From Primula veris (lineage: Eukaryota; Streptophyta; Magnoliopsida; Ericales; Primulaceae): a DNA stretch of 64,000 bases. How positions within the stretch are numbered: position 1 is the first letter of the stretch; each line of letters opens with the position of its first letter. Under the pieces are notes generated by a model that was given only the letters and a program-made list of their open reading frames with translations, had not been told where the DNA came from and searched no databases. Positions 1,620-24,662 of the stretch are shown one piece after another. The translations under genes and the position numbers were made by a program. Location of the stretch: the NCBI GenBank assembly GCA_963682055.1, contig OY821747.1, positions 28,332,126-28,396,125 on the forward strand, written 5' to 3'.

Positions 1620-2440
1620 AAAATTGGTTTATCTCACCAGATAGCAGGTTTTTCAATAAAAGACGGGTTTATCAACGAAAACCAGCTTTTCTCATCCGAA
1701 AGCGGCTCTTTATGTTGTTTACCAGTATTTTGATCGTGTAGAAACTTTTTTCATGAGAAAACAGGTTTTTCTACTGTCAATATAGCTTAAAAAGTGGTTT
1801 AAACATCTTAGTGAGGTTTTTTTTCATCAAAACCGGCTATATCACATGAAAACGACTTTTTTTTTTTTATCGAGAAATAAGTTTTTTGCCATAAAGCAAA
1901 CAAATCATTGGCTAGTGTGTTATTTTACTCGAAAATGGGTTTTTTTATTTGTAAGAAAATTTTTTTACAATAAAATGAATGTTAATAAAAAATCCGACTG
2001 TTTGCATGAGAAATACCTATTGCATATAGTTATGTTGAAAGTGCTTATAGCTCAACACAAAGTCGAAAATGCAAATGCTTATATAGTTCAGTGAAAATGA
2101 AATATTGTTAAACTTTGTGCATAGTTCACTCGAAATTGGATATAATTTAACACAAATTGTGTATAGTTCAACACAAAGTCTAAATAATTCAGTCGAAAGT
2201 GTGTGTAGTTTACGATAAAATACATATAGTTTAGAGAAAATATCATATTAGTTCAATTCAAATTCCATATAGTTCAGCTTAAAATGCATATAAAATTATG
2301 CTTAAAATGCATAAAATTCAATCAAAATGGCGTATAGTTAAAGTGCATATGGTTTAGTAGAAATTGCACATAATTCACTATAAGGTCCATATAGTTTAAG
2401 ACAAAATGCATTTATATAGTTAAAGTGCATATGAATATGT
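1620..2440. repeat. Degenerate short-period tandem repeat tract
   Basis: Roughly 20-30-bp units recur across this stretch. In the right part they read like ATATAGTTCAGTCGAAATGC (examples near 2105, 2160, 2190, 2270 and 2330). In the left part they read like ATGAAAACCGGTTTTTCTC (near 1640-1850). Copies are strongly diverged, so exact period and copy number cannot be fixed by eye. The 82-codon frame inside it (1846-2094) follows the repeat and is not believed to be a gene. Confidence 0.5.
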
Positions 2441-2886
2441 TTGTATGTATAGAAAGGAGAGGGATAGAGGTACATTGAATTAACAGAGAAAAAGAGATCA
2501 CTTATCAAGGAAAACATGAAAATAGAGAATTAGATGGTGATTTTAAGAGAGATACAAATTATGATAGGGACCTCATGAAAATATTCTTTGAAATTTGAAA
2601 AGTATGAGTTTTTTTTTATAATATCTATCCTAACTAACAATATATTTTATTGTTTTCATTAACCTTTTCTCTCTGCACTTTCTTTCTTTCACATAAACAT
2701 CTTATTACTTAAAATAATGTAAAACCGTGTTCATCGCAAAGTCTATAATCAAGCAACGAGTCCTTACCTAATATTAGTAGAGAAGGATTGATATTGGAAT
2801 ATATAGTAGAGAGGTTGAATCTCCAAGACCTACACATTGATTTTTCAAAAGAAATTCAAGGTCTGAGTTCAAGTAAAGGATGATAC

Positions 2887-3434
2887 TGTTGACCAAGTTC
2901 TAAATAAACACAATAATTTCTACGAAAAAAAAATGGACAAATAAACAGAAAAAAGTTTCTTCAAATATATAATTATCAATTACAACCTTCAAAATTAAGA
3001 GTATGTAAATGATACCGAAATGGATTAAAGTCCGAGACGAAGTAACTGCAAGCAGCTTCCCTTAAATGATATTTGCCCCGCCACCTCTGCTTCTGGCTAA
3101 ATGGGGCACTTCGTTCCCAAGGTACAACGTCTATCGCATGTGACTCAACGGAAACGGCACCGAGCCACGATCGGGTCGTTGGTGGTGCGGTACTCTCTCT
3201 CTATATGTATGCATATGTGTATGTGTGTGAATGTGTGTATATGCCATGTATGAAACCTTGTCTTGAAAAAATGTTCTAAAAATGGACCAAGACCGTCATT
3301 TTTTAAACATTTTTCTATATAACTCATTTTACAATTAAATACCCACATAAATGGGGAGAATGAATGGTTTTCTAACCACTAAATTAAAATAGCATTCACT
3401 CAAATAAAAACCACTTGGTTTTTTTTTTCCAACA
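2887..3434 (-). repeat. LTR (3' LTR in element orientation)
   Basis: The sequence is nearly identical to 10213-10761 over most of its length, including a shared block GGGGCACTTCGTTCCCAAGG near 3102. It begins TGTTG and ends CCAACA on the plus strand. The first roughly 20 bp after TGTTG differ from the other copy (ACCAAGTTC here, GGTACGCTG there), which is unusual when the remainder matches so closely. Confidence 0.85.
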
Positions 3435-6400
3435 ATCCCCCACATGAATGCGATTTAAAGCATGCAATGTGCAACTAAATGCAATCGAGAGAACCACGAG
3501 AATTCACTGCATAAGGACAGGTAGCGCACACATTGAACCTGCCATAGCGAAATACCTTTCGTATATACTTGTCTTAGGTAGTGTAATGCTTTGAACCCTC
3601 AACGTTTTGTGTATAACAAAATGATACCCGCACAGTGTCTTCTCTACACCACTTACTAGGCCCTTTAGTTGTTGTCCATATTTGGCCCTGGACTGCCTTG
3701 GCAAATTCAACCGAGTGCTCTAGCGATTTAGCCCTAGATCATCACATAGCATCGGTCATACACACTCGTTATAGGTGATTTTCAAGTCAAAAGTGTCCTG
3801 ACTCACCCCACTCGACCTTCGAGATACTTGATTCATTAAGAGCCTCATGCTCACCCTTAAAATGGTACAGGTCTATCACTCTTTCATCATAGAAATGGGC
3901 TGAGAATTTATGTTCTCGAGTGCTTTGTTCGGTAACCCGCACAGTTCAGTTTTTCCATTGAACCTGAGACTGAAATTTCCAGTACAGGTCGGGTAGCTTA
4001 TGTGAAGGTTTTCAATTTATTGGGCTTCAACCCCCATTTCCCTCGATGATGCTCCGACTCCTCCACAAGTCAAGCATTTTGTATATGGATCCGCATTATT
4101 ATCCTTAGACCTTGCAAAGTCTAAGGATACCACACTGTTTGCTAGCAATTCCTTTTACGGACTTGTGTCTCCGACGACTATGTCATGACTTTGTTGGAAC
4201 TTTCCATTATACAATTACTCTGATCCCGTTCAATAAATGACTGACTTTATCAGTGCACGCTTATTGAGGAAACAAATTTTGGCCACTTGGGAATACCTCC
4301 CAAACCTTCTCAGCCAATATGCCTTTTTTCAGTGTCTACAGCATTATGAATTCTGATTTCATAGTTGATCCACGTATGCATGTCTGTTTCACAGACCTCC
4401 ATGAGACTGCAACCTCTTTAAGTACAAACATATCCACTTATAGACCTTGTACTGTTAAAGTTCGAGAAACTTGGTATCAAAATACCCTCCAAATATTTTG
4501 GACATCTCGTATAATGCAGTTCATGATTGGCAGTATACCTCATGCATCTGAGAAGCCTCATTGGCAAACCTACTCGGTATGCTCACTGAGTTGACTATAT
4601 CTGGTCTAGTGCAGTTCTTGACGCACAAGAGACTACATATGATAAGTTAGGTGTTTATTTTAGTCCATATAGTGACTTAACAAGTTTTTGAACCTTGGCT
4701 TACTTTACACGGAAACACGACCCAATGGGTTGTTCCTAATTCTCTAGATCTCCATTTATAAAACACATGTTCTCATTAATTAATGATGCGTCTTTTCATA
4801 GAGATTAGAGTATACATTAAAATTATCAAAACCGTCAGTTACTTAAAATAATTGACTTTATTTCTCACGTGCCTATCAACCTCATTGTTGATGGCATCTT
4901 CCCATATACACATTATATGGATAACATTGATTATTTCAATATCGTCGATTCACCTTCACTCATGAAGGTCAAGGGACAAAGGAAGTTTCATTACTTACCC
5001 TTTTACCATGCCCAGCACTTCATCTTCCTTACAAGATTCACTTTCCCACTTTTCCAGCACCGTTTGAGTATTCACTTGTCTTGGGTAGCATAATGCTTTG
5101 AGCCCTCAACGTATTGATCACACTTTCCAGGCGTTAGAGTTTTTGCGGAAAAACTTATCTTTTAGAAAATATGTTTCTCGGGCATAGAACAATGTTCTAC
5201 ATGCGCTTTAAAGTCACATGCCTTATGCACTAGAAACCGATCAACACTATATTTTGTGCTTATCCGATGAACACACAATCTACCGTTTTCGATCTTATCC
5301 AAGTCCTTCAAAGAACAAGAATTGAGACCTTTCTTAGGTAGCACCAAACTTTCACGAACTTATAGTCAGGCACCATGCCTTCTATAATTCTGACTGTTTG
5401 GTCCAACTTTCTAAGCGGTAGTTTGTTTAACACATAGCTTGAGGAAAGCTCACTTTCCGCACAAATTCAGAGTTTAACCCTGAATTTATCAACATGATAT
5501 TCATCGTTTAAGAACTACATTTTTGCTCGAGAGCATAATAAGTTGTTCTTCAACAATTGGTGTCATTCCAACAACACAATTGTGTGAATGACGTCTCATA
5601 TTCACCGTTTCATTTACACTGACCATGTATTAATATCCATGTGAATATACCGTTTCGGAACTAGTTAGACAATATCTAACACGTCCAAGAAAAGTCTATC
5701 ATTTAATGATTAACATTTAATCATTGGATTAAAGTTGGTAGATTAACACAACAGAACACACATGATTAAACATGTTTTCTGACAAACCTTAATTCTCAGC
5801 CTTAATTCTCAATAATAGAATTCACGTATTCATTCTTACTTGAATGAATATCTCAACTGATTTGTCTTTACTTCTCATCAAGTAGACATATCAGTGTTTA
5901 GTACAACCATCAATAAATTGAGAAAATACCTTTTAAACCATTCTTGGTTTTGCACGCATCTCAAATGCATCAAATCATTAGGTTATGTACTCCATTCAAA
6001 ACTTCGAACTGAAGACTTAGCAATACATTGCTTCAAACACAAACTCATATTTGTGTTTCAATTTAAATAATAGATTTAGAAAAATAAAAGATTTATGGTT
6101 TTATATTTTCATGACCTACTATATCATGTCAAATCAGTGACTTAGTTGAATAACTCAACATGTCATTATTGACCACAAGAGTATCGACTAAAATGTTCAT
6201 TTTGAACAAATAGTCACTCATGTGTTGCCACAAACAAGCAAACTTATGAAAATTTGATCCTAGTGTTTTGGCTACCGAAAGGCTACCGCCCTTTAGGTTT
6301 CAAAAACCACTAGTCATGATTCAGATTTATATGCTTTCACTTGTTAGTGGATTTCGAAACGTTTAAAATGTTTTCACACATTAATGCCCCCACAGTTCGT

Positions 6401-8014
6401 GCATTCCCTTTGTCCTCACTCAGGACATGCACATTTTATTGAGAAATTTAACCGCTTTCAATGTGGTAAATAAATTTTATCATTTATTTCAGACGTTTAA
6501 GGTCTATACTACTGAACCGTTAGGTATTCTCTCACTCGCCTGTAAGCTTTGGGGTACGTTTAGATTCTCGATCTACATGATCGACGGGTTACCCCCACAT
6601 TTGTGGGACCCTTGGGGTTCTCCCCCAATAATAGTAATATAATATTACTAAATTATTATTCTCAATAATAACAAACTCAACATATTCACAATATGTTTTA
6701 CTAACAAATTAATCATATGTTATTTCAACAAATTATTAAATATTTTTCCAACAAATAAATAAGATGTTAATTTCAACAAATTATTAAATGTTCTTTCAGC
6801 AAATTAATAAGATGTTATTTCAACAAATAATAAATCAGCCGATATTTGTTTATTCTTAAAATAAAACTCAACGGTTATTTATAATTTGTCTATCATCAAA
6901 TTATTTGCTCTTGGATGAACAAAATTTAGTATTAAATAATCTTTCATCCAAATATGTAACTGACTCATCATTGCAATGATTTATAACTTTTCAAATTAAA
7001 TTGCGATTGATCACAATTAATAAGAACTTATAAATAATCGTCATTAATCTCATTAATGATCACCGTTACAAATTTTGTAACCCTCCAAATTAAATTGCAA
7101 TAAATCACAATTAATAAGGATATCACTCATTATATCACCACATTAGTATCTTTAATAATGGTGATTTTGAATTTGTAACCCCCCGTCATTAATATGCACT
7201 CATGCAAAATTAATAGGAGTTACACCGGCACCCATAATGTACTGGTTAGTTCCAGCACCCACTGTGTTCCAGACATTTCTCGCAGTAAACTGTTTGTTAT
7301 CTCAAATAACAAACATGCACAATCTAATTTCGGGTAATGAAACTAAAACTTCTCTTTCGCAAACACCAAATTTCTATAACCACGCATGGTTTCAAGAAAC
7401 TGATTTTACAAGAGTATTCTAGTTCATTCCCGAAAAAAATTATCAAATTCTGAAAGATTTATTCAACCGTAAACACCAGATAAATCTGATTTTACACAGA
7501 ACAATCTCAGAATTCAAGCAGTTCTGTCGTAAGCCCCAAATTCTGAAAATCAGAAAATGGTTTACAAGAACTAGTTCGAAACCAGTTCTGTCGTAATCCC
7601 CAATTTAATGGCTTTTACTAGAACTGTTTCGAATAATCACCAATCCGCCAATTTCATGTTAGAGATCCATGTCTACACAAATACTCATTGGAAATTGTTA
7701 GTACTTTATTAACATGATAAACAATAAACATGTATAAATAAACTAACAAAATAATATAATTTAGTCTCTAACCAAATTATTTCTCATAAATAAAAATTCT
7801 AGAATATATACGGTTTCACAAAACAAATTTAAGAATTTAAAACCAACTAATTTTCATTCCATAATAAGCATCAATTAAGGCAGTTCTCCAATCTTAAATT
7901 ACTTAAGCAATAATTGATACTAACATGCCAGCATGCATGTAATGTATGAATGATTGAAAATATGCTCATATATTATTCACAATTTAAACCCATCAGTAAC
8001 TAAACCTTTAAATA
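3435..8014 (-). other. Non-coding interior of the LTR element, left part
   Basis: No retroviral-type domain is recognisable on either strand. A motif recurs inside: CTTGTCTTAGGTAGTGTAAT at about 3568 and CTTGTCTTGGGTAGCATAAT at about 5074, each followed by a CTTTGAACCCTCAACG-like stretch. This suggests internal modular duplication. The stretch from about 6640 to 8000 is very AT-rich with repeats of the CAACAAATTATTAAAT type. The longest frames (for example 4319-4594 on plus, 3504-3710 on minus) have no protein family signature that I know. Confidence 0.55.
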
Positions 8015-8022
8015 CTCACGAT

Positions 8023-9098
8023 TAGGGGTGTGCACGGGGCGGATTGGGGCGGATTGGTTTCAATCCTAACCCGTCCCGTAAAATAAATGGCGGGACGGAT
8101 TGGGGCGGATTAGTGAAATTCAAATCACAACCCAACCCAACCCATTATAATTAAAACCCCAACCCAATCCAACCCAACCCATTATCAAGCGGGGCGGATT
8201 GGGTGCCGGTTGTTTCTTGAATTTTCATTTTAGTCATTAATTTTTTATTATTTCGCATAATTTACCTAAATATTTTAAAAAAAAAAAAATCTTTCAAATA
8301 GAAATATAAACTAAAAGCCAACCAAAATACGTTTAGAATGTTCGGAACAAGTAACAAAGCTAAAACAAAACAAAACAAAACAAATTGTTCTTCATCAACA
8401 TAATCAAAATCAGAAAACTACATAACAATTGAAATCAAAATTAATAATCCACTGAGTATGACCATGAACCGGGATTATTTAGGCAGTGTCGACCAATTGT
8501 TTAAGACTTGAGGGTAGTGACATCTTTGAACTGCAAAAAATTACAATGAAAAGTTGAATTGGTATGTGACAACATATTGAAATTCCATTAAGAGTTTACA
8601 TCAATTTTATTACCTTTTACATCTCGTTTTGTTGTCTCCTAAGAAAGTGTGTTTGTACAACTCTCCACAGATAATATTTCTACATTTAATGACAAACAAA
8701 TAGTTACTATATAAAATAAGAATTTTGAGAGACCAAATTTAAAAATGAAATCCGTTCTACCTTCTTCACATTGCTCGTAAAACGTGTATGATTCGATGGA
8801 TGGTTCATCTTTTATATATGTTGTGATATGGTCGCCCTTGATCCAGTCTTGAAGACATAACAATGCCTCGACTGATTTATATTTATATTTATATATATAT
8901 ATATATATGCGGATTGAAACGGGTTAGGGTGGATTAACCCGTGGTTTGGAAACCCCAACCCTAACCCACCCCACGAATTTTTTTACGGATTGGGGCGGGG
9001 CGGATTTAACTTTTTTTGACACCCAACCCGCCCCAATCCGCCCCAATCCGTACGGATTGGGTTACGGGGCGGGTTTGCGGATTTTTTGCCCACCCCTA
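8023..9098. mobile_element. hAT-superfamily non-autonomous element
   Basis: The element starts TAGGGGTGTGCA and ends TGCCCACCCCTA, giving terminal inverted repeats TAGGGGTG/CACCCCTA. It is flanked by a perfect 8-bp target-site duplication CTCACGAT (8015-8022 and 9099-9106), the hAT hallmark. Both subterminal regions are packed with GGGGCGGATTGG-type units, in opposite orientation at the two ends; such clusters are typical transposase-binding zones. The interior is AT-rich, includes an (AT)n stretch near 8892-8908, and encodes no transposase. The short plus-strand frame 8946-9134 is simply the translated subterminal repeats. Confidence 0.9.
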
Positions 9099-14664: not shown

Positions 14665-15900
14665 TCTTCATTTTGTCTAGCCGTAACTCCTTATCAACAT
14701 TCAATGCTGAGTAGAAAATTCGAGAGCTTACCTCGGATCTATAGTTTACTTCAAAATCGCATGATAATTAAGTTCACTATGTAGCAATCGATGTCATCTT
14801 TGGCAAACTAATGATGATGACATTTGTACCCTCATAATATTTATCCTCAAACAACCGAATTCACAACCAGAATACCCTTATTTTGAGACAACGTGATTAC
14901 TTATTAGAAGTGGCTACTTTAGTTTCGGAAAATGCAGTAATTAATTTAAGGCTGTAAACAATTAAATGAAACAGATAAAAAAGATATCATAAAGAGAAAA
15001 TCAAGGTTTTAATGTTTCATTAAGGGATAAGCACCGGTGTTAAAAATGTAAGCCCTATCAAGTTTATAATAGAGATAGCGAGAGACATAGGATCTTGTAC
15101 AATTATATATTATTGTTACTGGGAGAGAAAGGGTAAAATTCGACTTACACATCTATTTTGTGTAGCTAACAAATTATAAGATGTATGGTTTTCTAGTTAA
15201 AGCAGCCTAGTTTGTATTAAAATTTTCGGAATGAAAATTTTCAAAAGTTGATTATATAGTTCAAATGTTAAATTTTATGATTATATTTAAAAAAAATTCA
15301 TTTCGACAATTTTGATACAAGTAATAAGCCGGTCAAAATTGCACGTAGTTTCGTAATGAACAATTAAATGGGAACGGAGGGAGTATAAATCAGTATGTAT
15401 TTACTATTTCATTGATTCCAGAATTTATTTTTTTGAATATCGGGACTCTTTTTTCACTTTTGAGGTTCCAAGGCGTTTAAAAGATGAATGTTGATATAGC
15501 TATCCAAATTTTCAAACCAAAATTATTATCCGCTTTATATGACGTATTAGATATACCAATTATGTATTAAATTAAAATAGTCTTTCAAAATCATAAACAA
15601 AACGTCTGATCCACGTAATCCGCCACATCAACGCAACGGGTAAGATTATTGGATTGAAAAGTTGGTCAGAAAAATCATTTTCCGTAAAAGAGTATTAACC
15701 TTGGCCTGAAACTGAGCAACCTCAACAATGGTGATAAAAACAATTATACACCCAATGAACAGTTCATTTGTAACAGCCCACAGGGACCCTACATAAGTGG
15801 TTAGAGTAGTAATAAAATGAAAGAAATATTCAGATCCTTTTCATGGGTTTTTTTGTCGAGGTGAGCTCATTGTACTATATTTTTTCTTTTAAAACGCGTG

Positions 15901-16004
15901 AACCGTAGATTAAATCTACGGTTTACAGTGATCCACTGTAAACCGTAGATTTAATCTACGGTTTGTATTCATTTAATGCAAACCGTAGATTTAATCTACG
16001 GTCT
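15901..16004. repeat. Left palindrome array of the MULE (3 units)
   Basis: Three near-identical palindromes of the form AACCGTAGATTAAATCTACG plus GTT lie at 15901-15924, 15940-15964 and 15980-16004. They are spaced about 40 bp apart and start 43 bp inside the element end. Each unit is self-complementary. The same unit forms arrays at the right end and in the middle, so it is a structural part of the element. A role as a transposase-binding site is an inference. Confidence 0.9.
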
Positions 16005-17314
16005 GTGTAATTTCTGAAAAAATTACACAGTCAGTCCCTGCTTTTCAGAATTACACAGTCAGTCCCTGCGCCAAAATTACACAGCAGGTCCCTGAAAAAC
16101 AGAAACTTACGTTTTTTTAAAAAAAAACATTTTTTATACTACATTCTCTCTCTTTCTCTCAAAAACCCCCAATTTTCAACCCAAAAAATCACTCAAATCA
16201 ATCAACCACATTAACTATCAAATTTATTAACAAAAAACCCCAAATCATCAATCAAACTTATCCATAATTGAAGGTATATCTTTTATTCTCTAATTTATTA
16301 TGTATTTTGTGTAATTTAAATTTGTAAAATAGGAAAAAATATATAAAATATGCAAATCCATAATTCACTTAGCTATATATAATTGTTTGTTGTTTGTTTA
16401 TATTAATTATAGAAATTTTAATAATTATTGATATTTGTCCCATTTTTGCATGTTTTTTTATTTTGTTTGGTTAATTTGAATTGTTGATAATGTGTTTGGT
16501 TATGATTAAAAAATTGAGTTATTATTGTTTGGTTTATGATTAAATGTGTTTGGTTATGATTAAAAAATTGAATTATTATTGTTTGGTTTATGATTAAATG
16601 TGTGTTTGGTTATCATTAAAAAATTGAATTATTATTGTTTGGTTTATGAAAAATGTGTGTTTGGTTATCATTAAAAAATTGAATTATTATTGTTTGGTTT
16701 ATGAAAAAATGTGTGTTTGGTTATCATTAAAAAATTGAATTATTATTGTTTGGTTTATGAAAAAATGTGTGTTTGGTTATCATTAAAAAATTGAATTATT
16801 ATTGTTTGGTTTATGATTAAATGTGTGTTTGGTTATCATTAAAAAATTGAATTATTATTGTTTGGTTTATGAAAAAATGTGTGTTTGGTTATCATTAAAA
16901 AATTGAATTATTATTGTTTGGTTTATGAAAAAATGTGTGTTTGGTTATGATTAAAAAATTGAATTATTATTGTTTGGTTTATGAAAAAATGTGTGTTTGG
17001 TTATCATTAAAAAATTGAATTATTATTGTTTGGTTTATGAAAAAATGTGTGTTTGGTTATCATTAAAAAATTGAATTATTATTGTTTGGTTTATGAAAAA
17101 ATGTGTGTTTGGTTATCATTGTTTTGTTATCATTAATTGGTTATAATTGAGTTATCATTGTTTTGTTATCATTAATTGGTTATAATTGAGTTATCATTGT
17201 TTGGTTATCATTAATTGGTTATCATTGAGTTATCATTGTTTGGTTATCATTAATTGGTTATGTTATCATTTTTTGGTTATCATTAATTGAGTTATATTTG
17301 GTTATCATAGTTAG
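16005..17314 (+). promoter_or_regulatory. Promoter/leader and 5'-UTR intron of the PMD gene
   Basis: Three short direct repeats of the type AATTACACAGTCAGTCCCTG occupy about 16018-16095. A pyrimidine-rich leader (around 16144-16200) is followed by a plausible donor AAG|GTATATC at 16274. The matching acceptor TTAG|GATGG lies at 17313-17314, one base before the chosen ATG. If correct, the intron is about 1.04 kb and contains the whole 53-bp minisatellite. No certain TATA box could be picked. Confidence 0.55.
16490..17290 (+). repeat. Minisatellite inside the PMD leader intron
   Basis: From about 16490 to 17115 a unit of about 53-60 bp repeats roughly a dozen times. It is built from GTGTTTGGTTATCATTAAAA, then AATTGAATTATTATTGTTTG, then GTTTATGAAAAAAT. 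Neighbouring copies are almost identical, some differing only in the A-run or in GATTAA versus GAAAAAA. From about 17115 to 17290 a shorter unit (TTATCATTGTTTTGTTATCA with TTAATTGGTTATAATTGAG) takes over. The high identity points to recent expansion. Confidence 0.9.
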
Positions 17315-17315
17315 G

Positions 17316-19699
17316 ATGGCAGACCCAGGTCCACATATTAAAGGGAGGTTGGGTATTTTACGACAGACTGGTCACATTTCTAATCAGACTTGGGATGCTG
17401 GCAGAGAAGCGGGTAGAGGAGATGCCAATAAGATTAGGGTTTATAATTATAGTTGGCAGATACCGACGCCTGAAAGGGTAGTTCAAAATATCATTAGGGC
17501 TGGTTTTTACGGTATTTACAGTATAGGTAATTATACCGTAGACCGAGGGTTGATTACAGCCTTAGTTGATAGGTGGCGTGATGAGTCGCACACGTTCCAT
17601 TTTGTCGGGGGAGAGTTGGGGATATCTTTACAGGATGTAGAGATTATGCTTGGTCTGAGGGTGGATGGTCTTGCTGTGACCCGGTCGGAGCGGAATGACA
17701 CGAAGGCGAGCAGGTTGGCTATGATGGAGAGTTTGTTGGGTGTTAGGCCGGCTGACAATCAAGTCGATCAAAACTGTCTGACAGTTAGACTTGATTGGAT
17801 GTTACAGACCTTCGGTGAATTACCCCCCAACCCTAGCGAGGAGCGTTTACTATATCAGTCTAGGGCTGCCATGCTATTATTACTGGCTGCACATGTGTTT
17901 TCGGATAAGAGCAGTGATCAGATTCCACTCTGGCCTCTGCCATTTCTGGAGGATTTTGACACATGTGCTGAGTATAGTTGGGGATCAGCTCTTCTGGCCT
18001 GGTTAGAGGCTAATCTATGCAGGGTGGTACGTTGTAAGACAACCGGAGTAAGCGGGGCGGTGATGTTTCTGGATATGTGGGCGATTACCAGACTACTGCC
18101 GGTTAGACCGTGTGAAGAGCTGCCGGAAGATGTCGAGCCACCGGAGGGCTTGCCTAGGTTCCCCCTCGGTTACAGGTATGATATTTATTTAGTTTTTGAA
18201 TTGGATTTGCTTTTTTATATTATTGTGTCATCTATCATTTACTTAGCTGCCGGTTATATTTATTGTTTATCGGTTTTTGTTTGTATATTACAGATGGAAG
18301 ATGTGGAGGCAAACTAACCTTACGCCATATGTCTACGGACATAATGTGGTCCACATACGTGACCAGTTTGACAATATGTCGCCTGAACAGGTAAATTTTA
18401 ATTGTCGTATTATATGTAACTTACGTATTATATGTTGTATATGTTTGCATTTGTCTTATGTTCGCATAATTTATTACTCGTCTATTTTTAAACCATTGTT
18501 TATATATTCTAATTTGATGATTACAGATAGTGTGGCAACCTTACGGGGATCTCAATCAGTATCCGGAATACTGCACGCGGGACCGTTATATGTGGCATTG
18601 TTCTGTGCCTCTCATTTGTAATGAGAAGATTGAGTACCACCCCGCGGACAGGTTCATGAGACAGTTCGGTTTTGTGCTGCGGGTCCCTACATATATTTGG
18701 AAACCCAGACATGGTCACGGCAAGGATAGAAGATATGGGATTGGGCAAAAACACGACTGGCCTTTACTAACCGGAGAATTTATAGCCGTGTGGAATGACC
18801 GCCACACCCGTCTTATTAACGGCGAATATGGCATGGGGACGTCACCGGATTACATGAAATGGTATAGAGAGCGGACCCGCATCTTGATAAACCCACCTGA
18901 ACTTGCCCCGCCATCTCACGGTTTCCGGGAGCATACAGGGTTGTTCAGTAAAATGGTAACAACTAATTAAAGTTCATTAATATTTGATTGTTATTTTTCT
19001 GTTTGTATATTTCAATACTTATAAAATCGTTTTTGATTGGTTTTTTTTTTTCAGAAAGCGGTATTGCGCCGAAATTTCAAATCATTCAAACAGCATAAAT
19101 TGAAAACGGAAGTGGACTTACTACGAAAGGACTTCGCTGAAATGGGATTGAATCCGTACGGGTCAGCTGATGAACAGTCGGATGGGGAGGATGACGATGA
19201 CGACGACGACGACGACGATGGTGATGACGACCTATGTTACGACCCAAGAAATTACACTAGGTCGGCAAGTTGTCGGCGTCCCGATGAAAGAGGCAGAGGG
19301 GAAGGCGAATCTAGTAGCGGCGGTAGAAGAACCAGTGGAGGTCGACCCCCGACTACAGATCAGGGTCCGGGTCCGAGTTCAAGCGGTCATGGTCGTCGTG
19401 CTTCTTTTGCTGGGTCGGGCTACGTTCAGGATGATGTCCCGTTCGATCATCATAGACAATCATTTGGGTCGTACGAGCATCATCCTAGTCATCAGTCAAC
19501 CGACAGTTGGAGTCGAGGGTTGACAGTTACATCCCACGAGCGTGCGCCGCATCCAGAATCGCAGCAGCGACAAAGACGGCGTACGGAGCTAAACGAAATC
19601 GAAGAGTCTGCTGAGCCGTCATCCGATAGATTAACATCGGCGGGAAAGATGCTCCCTATGCCCAACTTTAAAACATTTAGTCGTTACAAAAAAAAATAA
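17316..19699 (+). CDS. Plant mobile domain (PMD, MAIN-like) protein, four coding exons
   Basis: The exons I infer are 17316-18175, 18294-18390, 18527-18955 and 19055-19699. All junctions are GT-AG and in phase, giving about 676 residues. The ATG was chosen because it follows a good acceptor and starts MADPGP, as in many transposon-borne PMD proteins. The PMD covers most of exons 1-3; recognisable pieces are ERVVQNIIRAGFYGIYSIG, LITALVDRWRDESHTFHF, a VEIMLGLRVDG core and a late WYRERTRILI. Exon 4 is low complexity: a run of Asp at about 19186-19230, then Ser/Gly/Arg-rich sequence ending in KKK. Host relatives (MAIN, MAIL1 in Arabidopsis) act in nuclear genome stability and silencing; transposon copies are of unknown function. 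It precedes the transposase gene in the same orientation inside one MULE. No frame damage is visible, so it looks coding-competent. Confidence 0.88.
19186..19230 (+). other. Acidic poly-Asp tract encoded by GAC/GAT repeats
   Basis: This triplet-repeat-like stretch in the last PMD exon encodes an almost pure Asp run broken by Gly. Such acidic, disordered segments are prone to length change. Here it separates the folded PMD from the disordered tail. Confidence 0.8.
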
Positions 19700-20360
19700 A
19701 TGCACTGTTTTTGTATTTGATTTCTATGTTTGATTTGTCAGTTTTATTCTTAGCTAGGGTTGGAATATTATAAATTCGTAGGTTTAATTTGATTTCTATG
19801 TTTGATTTGTACGTTATAATTTCGTAAGTTTAATTTGATTCGTATGTTTGATTTGTATGTTTTAGGGTAAAAAATAATCTGTATTTTAATTGATAGGACC
19901 AATATTGAGTTTTTACAAACCCTAAACCCTAAACCCTAAACCCTAAACCCTAAACCCTAAACCCTAAACCATAAACCCTAAACCCTAAACCCTAAACCCT
20001 AAATTACAAACCCTAACCCCTAAACCCTAAACCCTAAAATTACAAACCGTAAACCCTAAACCCTAAACCCTAAACCCTAAATTACAAACCCTAACCCCTA
20101 AACCCTAAACCCTAAATTACAAACCGTAAACCCTAAACTCTAAACCCTAAATTCTAAACCCTAAACCCTAAACCCTAATTTACAAACCCAAACCCCTAAA
20201 CCCTAAACCCTAAATTACAAACCATAAACCATAAACCCTAAACCCTAAAATCTAAACCCTAAACCCTAAATTACAAACCCTGACCCCTAAACCCTAAATT
20301 ACAAACCCTAAACCCTAAACCCTAAACCCCTAAAAACTAAATATTCTGAAATATACATAC
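19700..20360 (+). repeat. Interstitial telomere-like (CCCTAAA)n tract inside the MULE
   Basis: After a short 3' region of the PMD gene, about 19917-20335 consists of CCCTAAA heptamers. Interruptions such as TTACAAA, CCCTAACC and CCATAAA recur in a semi-regular higher-order pattern (arrays of 3-8 heptamers split by AAATTACAAACC). The heptamer is the standard plant telomere repeat. Genes and transposon ends lie on both sides, so this is not a chromosome end. No gene lies in this interval. Confidence 0.92.
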
Positions 20361-20930
20361 AAACCGTACATTTAATGTACGGTTTGTACAGATTTCATAC
20401 AAACCGTACATTAAATGTACGGTTTGCATGTTTTATGTGCAAACCGTAAAAGTAATGTAAGGTTTGCACCCCTGATTTGAGCAGCGACGTTTTACGAATG
20501 TACTTTTTACACGGAATCACCGTTAATAACGTAAAAAAAAAATAAACTACAAACCGTAAAAGTAATATACGGTTTGTAGTGTAAATTACATTGGATACCA
20601 TATCTATCAAAATAATTCCGACAACACATTATCACTTTTGAATTATTATGACTTGACAACCCTATCCGAAAATGACTACTCAATGCATTATTAAAGTTTC
20701 GAAATGACTACTCCAAAAAAAACACTACAACCCGTAAAAGTAATATACGGTTTGTAGTGTAAATTACATTGGATACCATATCTATCAAAATAATTCCGAC
20801 AACACCTTATCACTTTTGAATTATTATGATTTGACAACCCTATCCGAAAATGACTACTCAATGCATTATTAAAGTTTCGAAATGACTACACCAAAAATTC
20901 ACTACAAACCGTAAAAGTAATCTACGGTTT
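20361..20930. repeat. Middle palindrome array of the MULE, with a duplicated 180-bp unit
   Basis: Palindromes related to the terminal ones occur at about 20361-20385 and 20401-20424 (AAACCGTACATTTAATGTAC type), then 20441-20465, 20551-20575, 20730-20755 and 20906-20930 (AAACCGTAAAAGTAATATAC type, less perfect). Between the last three, a unit of about 180 bp (20546-20725, 20726-20900) is directly duplicated with few changes. It contains TAATTCCGACAACA and TTATTAAAGTTTCGAAATGA. The array ends about 140 bp before the transposase ATG. Confidence 0.88.
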
Positions 20931-20947
20931 GTAGTGTAAACTTACCC

Positions 20948-20954
20948 TATAAAT
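20948..20954 (+). promoter_or_regulatory. Probable TATA box of the transposase gene
   Basis: TATAAAT lies about 120 bp upstream of the transposase ATG, immediately after the last middle palindrome, where a plant core promoter would be expected. There is no other support. Confidence 0.45.
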
Positions 20955-21072
20955 ATGACTCAATTTTGCCAATTCTAACAAACCATAAAATCAAACACAA
21001 ACACATTTCGGAAATCTCTAAAAAAATCCTCATTTCTCCCCAATAAAATATACAAACAAACACTTTTCGAAA

Positions 21073-23769
21073 ATGAATTACAACTATGGTTATGACAACA
21101 ACCAATGGAATAACAACAACAATGCGAATTCATCCAGTGGCTCAAACGATGAGCTAACTGATTATTCGGAGCACTTTGAAGTTGATGAATTGACTTGGGA
21201 AACAACGGATGAAATGCTTGCTGATCTTGCTGATGTGGCTGGAAATTGGGGTTTCATTCTTACGATTCGTAGGTCTGGAGGGGGTGATGGGAGCAGAACA
21301 CCGTATGTTGATATTGTGTGTGATAAATCGGGGGTTTACGAAAAAAAGAAACCATCTTCCGTAAAATCAGGTACAAAGAAAAAAGACTGTCCATTTTTCA
21401 TTAAAGGTTACGTAGTTAATGGTGAATGGATGTGTCACGTAGAAAATGGACAACATAACCACCCATCTCCAACTTACCTCCAAGGGCAAGCACGACGTGC
21501 TCGTTTAACCCAAGATGAAAAAGAAATTGTTAAAACTTTAAGGCAAAGTAGTTTTAAAGTTGGTGCAATATTAGAGGCCATTAAAAATCGAAATCCTGAC
21601 AATGTATCAAACACTAAAACGATACATAATTTTTTGGCCGGACTGAAATTTAAAGAACGAGATGGTAGAAACCCGACACAGGAACTTTTTAATTTGTTGG
21701 ATAGACATCGCTACACATTCTACTATAATATGAACCCATCAACCCATTGCCTTGAGAACTTGTTTTTTGCACACCCCGATTCTATAAGGATGTTCAAAGC
21801 TTTTCCTGATGTCTTGTTAATGGATTGTACATATAGGACAAACCGTTTTAATATGTCATTTCTAGAAGTCGTAGGAATGACATCAACGAACCAAACATAT
21901 TGTTTAGGTTTTGTTTTCATGAGTGACGAGACACAAGAAAGTTATATATGAGCATTGGAAAAATTTAAAGTTACATTGGAGGGGTGTATACTACCTAGGG
22001 TGTTTGTAACCGACAGGGAAATGGCCTTATCAAATGCTTTATCCGTTGTTTTTCCCGACTCTTATCATATTTTGTGCACTTTTCATATTGCAAAAAATGT
22101 TTTGAAAAACTGCCGTAAAAAGATCCCTGACGAGGAGTGGCAAACGTTTCTAGATGATTGGGGTTTATTGGTTGATTCTGAGTCGATAGAGGAGTACAAT
22201 TATAACCGAACTAATTTCAATACCTCTTACAAATCGTACCCTGCTGTGATTAAGTATGTAGACAAGCTTTTAAATGATTATGCTGAAAAGTTTGTTGCAT
22301 GCTATACCAACCACACAACACATCTAGGTAACAGAACTAGCAATCGAGCCGAACAACAACATGCTAAGCTGAAAAGATCCCTTTCCACAAATACTGGCAC
22401 GCTTGAAACTGTTTGGGTAGAGGTGAATAGAATTCTAGAAAAACAGTTTGAGGATATTAAGACGAAGTTGGATAAATGCAAGTCTTATTTTCCACATTCT
22501 GAAAAAACGCCTCTATTTATAAATCTTAGGTCGTATATCACACACTATGCCTTTGATTTATTATTCCAAGAACACAAAAAATGTAGTGGCCAGGCTGATG
22601 AGAATTGTTCTTGCGGTTTTAAATTGTCTCAAGGTTTACCTTGTCATCATATTATGAGTGAACATATTTTATTCGGGAAGCCTCTTCCTCTAGAATATAT
22701 TCATCCATTCTGGAAAAAATTAGACGTAATTGATGATAATGGGAACACCGATGATTATGGGGTAGAGGGTGATCTAGAAGAGTTTAAAAGTGTTTATGCT
22801 AGCAAAACGAATGTTGAAAAACGGCGTATGAAAACACAACTCCGAGAGATAACCGTACCAGCCAGAACATCCGTCAGTGACCCCGAAGTGAGAGCAAATA
22901 GGGGGAGACCTAGAAAAGGCGACAAATCTAGTAAGAGGGATAAGTCGGGATGGGAGTATGTGGAGGAACAGAGTGCTGGTGCTAGTAGGGACAAGGGTAA
23001 AGGCAAGGCGGATGAAACACCGGAGGTAAGGGTAAACCCAACTAGGAGGCCGCGAAACCAGAACCCTAAACCCACCCCCAATAGGCCAACCTTACTGTAC
23101 AGTGACCAAATATGGGTCATGTTACATAGTTACATCGAAACAGTTTATGATGTGCGTGGGGATGGTAACTGTGGGTTCCGGGTACTTGCAAATGCGACGG
23201 GTAAACAGAATGGGGAAGATGATTGGTACGCGATAAGATGTGAGTTGTTTCAAGAGCTGCAGCAAATGAAAGGTGTTTATTATGAGCTGTTTGAGAATCT
23301 TGACTTTGAAGCTTACCGGTATGATTACATTTTATCAAGTTTAAATTTTTATCATCCTACAGATCCCGCACCTATTGACAAATGGATGAGATTTCCGTCT
23401 TATGGGTTTTTAATTGCTTCTCATTACAATATGCCAATTGTATTGTTGTCCTTATGGGAAAATCAAAATGGAGGGGTAAACGTGTGGAACAGTACTTTTT
23501 TACCGCTTTATACTGGTCCGCCTCAGGGAACGACATATTACATCCCGACTGTAATGGTGTTCGTCAACAGTTGTCACTATGCTCAGGTTATTCCTAAAGA
23601 AGGGATCTTCCCAATGCCAGGAATTATAGCACGGTGGGAACAAACACGCACTGAGGCAGCTGCGCCATGGAAGGAACTTTTTCGACCAAATTTCAAATTA
23701 TATATGGCGCTGGAAAAGCAATCGGGAAAGAAAAAAGCAAATGAAGAACCTATAGACCTAAGTCCATAA
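21073..23769 (+). pseudogene. FAR1/MULE transposase fused to SWIM, AT-hook and OTU domains, one in-frame stop
   Basis: One frame of 898 codons without introns. Modules in order (residues from the ATG): an N-terminal Asn-rich stretch; a FAR1-type zinc-binding region (CPFFIKG near 106, QHNHPS near 127-131); a MULE-type DDE core with Asp about 251 (LLMDCTYRTN), Asp about 314 (VTDREMAL) and Glu about 427 (NRAEQQHAKL); a SWIM zinc finger (CSCGF...LPCHH, about 511-524); an AT-hook (RGRPRKG, about 609); and an OTU cysteine-protease domain with Cys about 700 (DGNCGF) and His about 835 (NSCHYAQV). The transposase would bind element ends and cut; OTU families hydrolyse ubiquitin-type bonds. A single TGA at 21949-21951 interrupts the frame where Trp (TGG) is expected just before ALEKF; the frame is otherwise open. 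It may be a young pseudogene, be bypassed by readthrough, or be a sequence error. Confidence 0.9.
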
Positions 23770-24467
23770 TCAGTTTTTTATTTTTAATTTTATGTAAATT
23801 ACTATTTTTTCCAATTTGTTGTAAATTTATATGATGTAAACAAATGTTTAATAAATTTGTTTTATGAAATTTAGTTCTATGAAATTTTGTTGTAAATTTT
23901 GTTTAATTTTGTTGTAAATTTTGTTTAATAAATTTATTTTATGAAATTTATAAGTTGATATTCATGTTTGCATATTGCGTTATACAAGTGTTAAATACAA
24001 ACCAAAAAAACTTCACAAAAATTGACGATTTAGTTAATGATTCAATAAATATCAACTTATACACTTGACAAAAATATAACATGAACCAAAAACATAAATT
24101 TTATCAAATCAACTTTTTTTGTGTAAATTTGTGTAAATTTTGTGTTTATTTTTACAGATTGTTAGAATATTCGTAATTTATTTTATGTAAAATTTTAAAA
24201 ATAAGTCATTTTGTTTTTAAATTTGAAAAAAACAAAATGTCTTATTTGAAAAAAATATCAACTTATACACTTGAAAAAAAATCAACTTATACACTTGAAA
24301 AAAATATCAAATTATACACTTGAAAAAAATATCAAATTTTAAACATAAGGCATTTTTATGTAAAAAAAAAATCATGTTTAATTTGAAAAAAATATTCAGT
24401 ATTTTAATTTTAATTATTAGAATTTTAATTTTAATTTTTAATTTCAAAAAATCTGTGAAAACACAGA
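23770..24467. other. AT-rich 3' tail of the MULE
   Basis: No gene is visible. Short repeats such as AAATATCAACTTATACACTT and TTTGTTGTAAATTTTGTTTAA recur. The beginning presumably contains the transposase 3' untranslated region and poly(A) site, but no specific signal stands out. Confidence 0.6.
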
Positions 24468-24611
24468 GACCGTAGATTAAATCTACGGTCTACAGTCATT
24501 GACTGTAGACCGTAGATTTAATCTACGGTTTACAGTCATTGACTGTAGACCGTAGATTTAATCTACGGTTTACAGTCAATGACTGTAGACCGTAGATTAA
24601 ATCTACGGTTT
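24468..24611. repeat. Right palindrome array of the MULE (4 units)
   Basis: Four palindromes of the ACCGTAGATTTAATCTACGG type lie at about 24468-24491, 24507-24531, 24547-24571 and 24587-24611. They are separated by 15-bp linkers that are themselves self-complementary (TACAGTCATTGACTGTA). The array ends 42 bp from the right terminus, mirroring the left end. Confidence 0.9.
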
Positions 24612-24662
24612 CAGCGTTTTTTCAGAAATTATGTAGTACAATAAGTGCACCTCTTTTTTGTC

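Follow-up and report, generated by a model that had tools for sequence, protein, structure and literature searches.

A high-copy MULE of Primula veris pairs an OTU-fold transposase gene with a PMD gene, a candidate VANC-like anti-silencing factor

In a 64,000-nucleotide stretch of Primula veris DNA (the window; GenBank assembly GCA_963682055.1, contig OY821747.1, positions 28,332,126 to 28,396,125 of the forward strand, here C8:28332126-28396125), we found one Mutator-like transposable element (MULE) with two gene cassettes, one for a PMD protein and one for a transposase with a C-terminal OTU-fold domain. It is a complete member of a high-copy family and carries an intact PMD gene beside its own transposase. 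The best-supported mechanism, to which we give a probability of roughly 0.58, is that PMD is a VANC-like, motif-directed anti-silencing protein. In this reading PMD would most likely be the element's own sequence-specific DNA-binding factor, would recognise short motifs that recur in the non-coding parts of the element and would keep copies unsilenced in trans, leaving both genes expressed. The best candidate for the bound motif is a CGTA-N9-TACG dyad that is present at both ends of the element and 5' of the transposase gene.

The ends and the target-site duplication (TSD), read directly, bound one whole MULE of 8,796 bp at 15858..24653 on the forward strand. The TSD of the MULE superfamily is about 9 bp, and here the 9-bp sequence TTTTTTGTC stands at 15849..15857 and again at 24654..24662. 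The two 22-bp terminal inverted repeats (TIRs; 15858..15879 and 24632..24653) agree at 18 of 22 positions, as expected of a TIR-MULE, and a looser inverted arm of 147 nt (82%) extends on the left to 16004. When the left 343 bp was used as a query against the source assembly (436.5 Mb, 34 contigs), there were 1,188 first-look candidates, and 35 of the 40 scored, the window's own included, match over the full length. Our sample of 21 copies consists of the window and the 20 next-best of these 40, taken as 10-kb pieces. The piece lacks a right end in 3 of the 21; each of the other 18 (the window and 17 more copies with similar ends) has a perfect 9-bp TSD, and all 18 are different. The initial annotation had described a complete element whose ends, 9-bp duplication and two genes are visible in the letters and which joins a PMD gene, an OTU-fused transposase, palindrome arrays and telomere-like DNA within one pair of bounds. 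All of these parts were located as described and, judged by the copies, the duplication is not a coincidence. The transposase of the window copy contains a stop.

The two genes travel together. The transposase aligns over its full length in 20 of 20 fetched copies, some with indels or stops, and the PMD gene is found in 19 of them (20 of 21 with the window); the exception, L015, has lost most of PMD by an internal deletion. Across the genome, first-look candidates number 1,304 for PMD exon 1, and all 136 that were scored have it at 98-100% identity; for a downstream transposase piece there are 1,728 candidates, with 98-100% identity in all 72 scored; among the matches listed, PMD lies upstream of at least 40 of the 72 transposase places. 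The transposase is open in 12 of the 21 copies, PMD is scored as intact in 13, and both hold in nine. Thus the doubt in the initial annotation that PMD might be a one-off insertion falls away, and the co-occurrence and open transposases that it had left to be looked for in other copies are both there. Four copies, L025-L028, differ hardly at all in either gene, which suggests that the family has been mobile very recently.

The PMD gene of the window has four exons on the forward strand (17316..18175, supported by a PF10536 match, 18294..18390, 18527..18955 and 19055..19699, the last with an acidic run, then a basic tail and the stop at 19697-19699). It matches PF10536 with 215.7 bits over profile positions 1-347 of 347 and is free of frame damage, as first annotated. 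To quantify selection on each gene across copies, as the annotation had proposed, we calculated the ratio of nonsynonymous to synonymous differences per site (pN/pS) from copies scored as intact only, 13 of 21 for PMD and 12 of 21 for the transposase. For PMD this leaves out L009, L013, L014 and L020 (one stop each), L015 (deletion) and three copies not fully scored as their alignment falls short of the first or last codon (L010; L012, with one stop within the first three exons; and L016, where the AG before exon 3 is missing). Pooled over 78 pairs of 13 copies, the pN/pS of PMD is 0.313; over 66 pairs of 12 copies, that of the transposase is 0.337. When PMD is compared with the earlier-diverged copy L039, the ratio lies at 0.29-0.38 in each of five pairs (Fisher p 7e-8 to 2e-14). 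These values indicate purifying selection on both genes between subfamilies. Co-occurrence and purifying selection support well the role at which the annotation had hinted, and PMD very likely serves the element. PMD is also a mosaic: exon 3, intron 3 and exon 4 occur in two haplotypes and exon 1 with intron 1 in another. The transposase is more uniform. This patchwork suggests that PMD segments seem to have been exchanged between subfamilies. Intron 3 is only about 77-84% alike between two of the haplotypes (window 17316-19699 and copies).

MULEs often capture genes, and PMD could be a passive passenger of the Pack-MULE kind; in keeping with this, four of the 21 copies have one stop in a full PMD frame and one is without most of the gene. 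A Pack-MULE is a captured fragment without its own transposase, however, and this element has full PMD and transposase genes, both constrained between subfamilies. Together with the intact multi-exon structure, the co-occurrence in 20 of 21 copies and a second PMD-bearing family (see below), the selection on PMD makes a passenger highly improbable. A different role within the element would be that of a helper in transposition: PMD, comparable to the second gene of maize MuDR, would act in integration instead of escape from silencing. PMD does co-occur with the transposase, the pN/pS values of the two genes are similar, and mudrB is a precedent that is apparently needed for integration (PMC6446971). 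The predicted fold of PMD points to an anti-silencing factor, and we consider the accessory role unlikely.

The fold match is what links PMD to VANC. The predicted model of a homologous PMD protein (from Fagus, about 37% identity to the window PMD) matches VANC21 with Foldseek TM-scores of 0.48/0.50, which we counted as the same fold. In sequence, the window PMD matches only PF10536 at E<=1e-3, with no DUF1985 match over the Pfam cut-off; weak DUF1985 matches are present in 9 of 36 PMD homologues. DUF1985, the VANC domain, is nearly absent from the source genome (39 candidates, none over the cut-off, two weak matches with stops). PMD has been called a domain of unknown function and described as angiosperm-only (PMC8616336). 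In the literature searched, no paper ties PMD to VANC by structure; the paper behind 9LNJ, which was not located, may do so. It is also conceivable that PMD is a decoy that disturbs the host MAIN/MAIL1/PP7L complex without binding element DNA, since host PMD proteins work with PP7L in the silencing of transposable elements (TEs; PMC7156037) and TE-encoded PMD has been suggested as a possible anti-silencing agent (PMC5418596, PMC8616336). We regard a decoy as rather improbable: it leaves the dense motif arrays unexplained, and VANC21, of the same fold, binds DNA.

The element has three sets of dyads. In the window, the left array (15900..16004) has 3 units of AAACCGTAGATTWAATCTACGGTTT with a spacing of 40 bp, the right array (24467..24611) has 4 units with the same spacing, and the internal set 5' of the transposase consists of 2 units of AAACCGTACATTWAATGTACGGTTT 40 bp apart (20361..20425) and of 178-bp repeats (20537..20945) with one dyad, (A/C)CCGTAAAAGTAATNTACGGT, each. 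Among the copies, the left array has 3-4 units with a spacing of 40 bp (once 80 bp), and its first core lies at element base 45 in 21 of 21. A strict pattern picks out 5-6 internal dyads in each of 20 copies, 3 in the remaining one, L015, and 1-4 near the right end where that end is in the fetched piece. The consensus is mostly CAAACCGTA-N9-TACGGTTTG; its CGTA-N9-TACG core is common to all 242 sites because it was the search pattern, but the outer letters are also largely kept (219 of the 242 have an A/T pair two bases out from the core), and the centre varies by place. The half-site AAACCGTA occurs 21 times in the window, 19 of them inside the element and none in coding exons, so the arrays lie in non-coding DNA as VANC-like targets do. 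Genome-wide, the terminal-type palindrome has 3,081 exact sites, compared to 0 for the reversed control. The first 50 of these sites listed form 24 clusters; of their 26 close distances, 23 measure exactly 40 bp. Eight cluster pairs lie within 13 kb of each other: five at 8.0-9.1 kb, the length expected of full elements, one at 2.9 kb, and two at 482 and 764 bp that look like deletion derivatives.

These dyads might be sites of the transposase, for synapsis and autoregulation, with PMD working in some other way. MULE transposase sites usually adjoin the termini, and the arrays adjoin both; the 482- and 764-bp pairs suggest short derivatives that retain the arrays; and in L039 PMD diverged earlier, yet the transposase is 96-99% identical and the dyads are the same. 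On the other hand, the internal dyads lie 5' of the transposase, at a position that needs no element end, and tandem arrays in non-coding DNA are the pattern of VANC targets. We take transposase sites as a serious possibility, at somewhat less than even odds. Hairpin formation as the cause of the palindromes is not favoured, because the dyads of the 178-bp repeats keep their outer half-sites but lose central symmetry. Between the PMD and transposase genes there is a telomere-like AAACCCT array (19917..20334), which could be bounded in 19 of 21 copies; each of these has 24-48 exact AAACCCTA. AAACCCTA is one base apart from AAACCGTA, and we rejected the array as a set of dyad half-sites: nearly all units are AAACCCTA, with 0-2 AAACCGTA per bounded copy. 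Upstream of PMD, a minisatellite with a 56-bp unit (16491-17120) and a second array with a 39-bp unit (17112-17312) fill 16491..17312, and this region differs in length among copies.

A member of a second, distinct PMD-bearing MULE family lies about 200 kb from the window element. This 6,260-bp element (positions 2094-8353 of locus L041, C8:28140929-28150928) has the TIR GAGTTTTTTGCC and the 9-bp duplication TTTAAAATT, which is weaker evidence of a TSD as the 21-bp tandem array around it has that word many times over. The PMD protein is 36% identical to that of the window. The transposase, on the opposite strand to PMD, is MuDR-type and in pieces, with PF03108 over the cut-off and a partial MULE domain below it. 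Two dyad motifs of its own occur at both ends of this element, and one of the two is present between its genes as well; dyads of the window family are absent from it. In at least one other copy (C11:26.16 Mb) such TIRs flank a PMD, and short TIR pairs of this type elsewhere suggest derivatives like miniature inverted-repeat transposable elements. One motif of this family, AAACGATCGGTCGTTT, has 10,804 exact matches genome-wide (control 1). Among the first 100 listed (C1), four clusters are repeated with unchanged spacing on the same strand at a distance of 3.6-3.8 kb, an arrangement that looks like long terminal repeats (LTRs); an LTR element may share the motif with a MULE. Such numbers would suit dyads that are host transcription-factor sites, for example MYB-like ones, that drive the element promoters and have nothing to do with PMD; the half-site also resembles what we take to be generic MYB cores. 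Host factors alone account less well for a 40-bp spacing kept at three separate places in the element and for the full-element length of five of the eight distant cluster pairs among the first 50 listed sites, and we think this explanation unlikely.

Several observations weigh against PMD as a motif-directed anti-silencing protein. The model behind the fold match is that of the Fagus homologue and not of the window PMD, and a PMD alignment profile searched against PDB sequences finds no VANC (one meaningless match, E 5.1). The published VANC21 motif, YAGTATTAY, is arrayed in one orientation and is not a dyad, and the host PMD proteins MAIN and MAIL1 are required for TE silencing (PMC5418596, PMC7156037). 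The spread of AAACGATCGGTCGTTT, with some sites in LTR-like direct duplicates, means that this motif is not private to the second family, contrary to a one protein-one motif relation. For the closest pair, the window and L019, no selection is visible (pN/pS 1.12 on ten changes), and several transposase comparisons do not reach significance. Finally, the dyads could instead be bound by the transposase or a host factor. The suggestion in the initial annotation that PMD may serve escape from silencing gains from the predicted fold match but stays a proposal.

Other PMD genes are present in the genome. In a first tree the window PMD stands beside P0034 (Glycine); in a tree with PMDs of its own genome, the window family, L040 and L041 group with a support of 0.995, and placement is unstable between the trees. 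L040 (C7:12900193-12910192) has a PMD 39% identical to that of the window, and one tree places it among the MULE PMDs; within 10 kb there are no window-type dyads and no transposase match to the queries tried, so it is possibly a host gene. PMD clusters also occur at C7:5.95-6.20 Mb, C12:1.04-1.08 Mb and C6:23.4-23.7 Mb, besides loci L029-L038; their PF10536 scores reach 343 bits in L029, a single locus on C5, and 334 in the C7 cluster. The four loci tried (L029, L030, L036, L037) have no tblastn match to the window PMD. The clustered PMDs and L029-L038 are possibly genic.

The transposase gene of the window (21073..23769, forward strand; 898 aa if open) has a MULE core and a SWIM-like motif and is interrupted by one in-frame stop at codon 293 (21949-21951). 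PF10551 matches either side of the stop with 41.4 and 38.7 bits (cut-off 27.6) and gives 98.5 bits in P0042, a 98% identical protein in which the SWIM-like motif is present. In a predicted model of the C-terminal OTU-fold domain (23092..23724), Asp and Cys stand at model residues 71 and 74 and His at 209; the domain keeps catalytic residues. As no more than a guess, it could be a deubiquitinase that, for example, protects the transposase or acts on chromatin ubiquitin. The OTU alignment (8 rows) sets the window piece beside 7 of 17 relatives, all chosen for having the motif; P0043, where it is present, and nine relatives without it were left out. P0042 has no Pfam OTU match and no match to the FAR1 DNA-binding domain PF03101 at E<=1; OTU is sub-threshold in P0046, P0050 and P0051, a protein search with the OTU region alone matched only P0042, and a FAR1 link comes only via names of relatives such as P0045. 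Like the window protein, P0044 (Camellia), P0045 (Fragaria) and P0046-P0048 and P0051 (Puccinia striiformis) have a MULE transposase followed by an OTU-aligning region with a DG(N/H)C motif, but they are only 25-33% identical to it, with sub-threshold Pfam OTU only in P0046 and P0051. MULE transposases of the rust fungus P. striiformis with the OTU-like motif (P0043, P0046-P0048, P0051) are among the nearest database relatives.

If PMD shares its fold with a DNA-bound anti-silencing protein, it has a testable molecular role, and host silencing genes (MAIN/MAIL) are linked with transposon anti-silencing genes. With a concrete candidate for the target DNA and with intact, near-identical copies, the family is a good experimental system. 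We tentatively suggest, at slightly under even odds, that a single class of DNA-binding proteins, encoded by transposons, sequence-specific and directed against silencing, has PMD and VANC as two of its branches, with MAIN/MAIL of the same fold class. PMD-MULEs would then be autonomous systems of transposase and anti-silencer that recur in different MULE lineages with their own dyad arrays, and they would fill the VANC role in this genome, where DUF1985 is nearly absent.

Known systems resemble the window MULE in part. In grasses and Amborella, MULE-encoded PMD-C proteins, for which the authors suggested anti-silencing, are described as transposase fusions (Ikeda et al., 2017; PMC5418596); in contrast, the window has a stand-alone four-exon PMD gene beside an OTU-fold transposase. 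Vitis P0026, P0033 and P0035 also combine PMD and a MULE transposase, but in one predicted protein (a fusion or a merged gene model); two of them, P0026 and P0033, match L041 in its PMD as well as its transposase and, unlike the window transposase, have the MuDR-type PF03108 domain. VANDALs differ from the window MULE in that their TIRs are absent or short and degenerate (PMC6446971), VANC is drawn with DUF1985 and not PMD, the VANC21 motif is not a dyad, and OTU goes unmentioned in the VANDAL descriptions consulted. Arabidopsis VANDAL21 (Hiun) nevertheless has, like the window MULE, a separate gene, here for VANC21, of the fold predicted for PMD, and tandem motif repeats in its non-coding DNA, some of them upstream of the transposase; and related families differ in their targets among VANDALs and in their candidate targets among PMD-MULEs.
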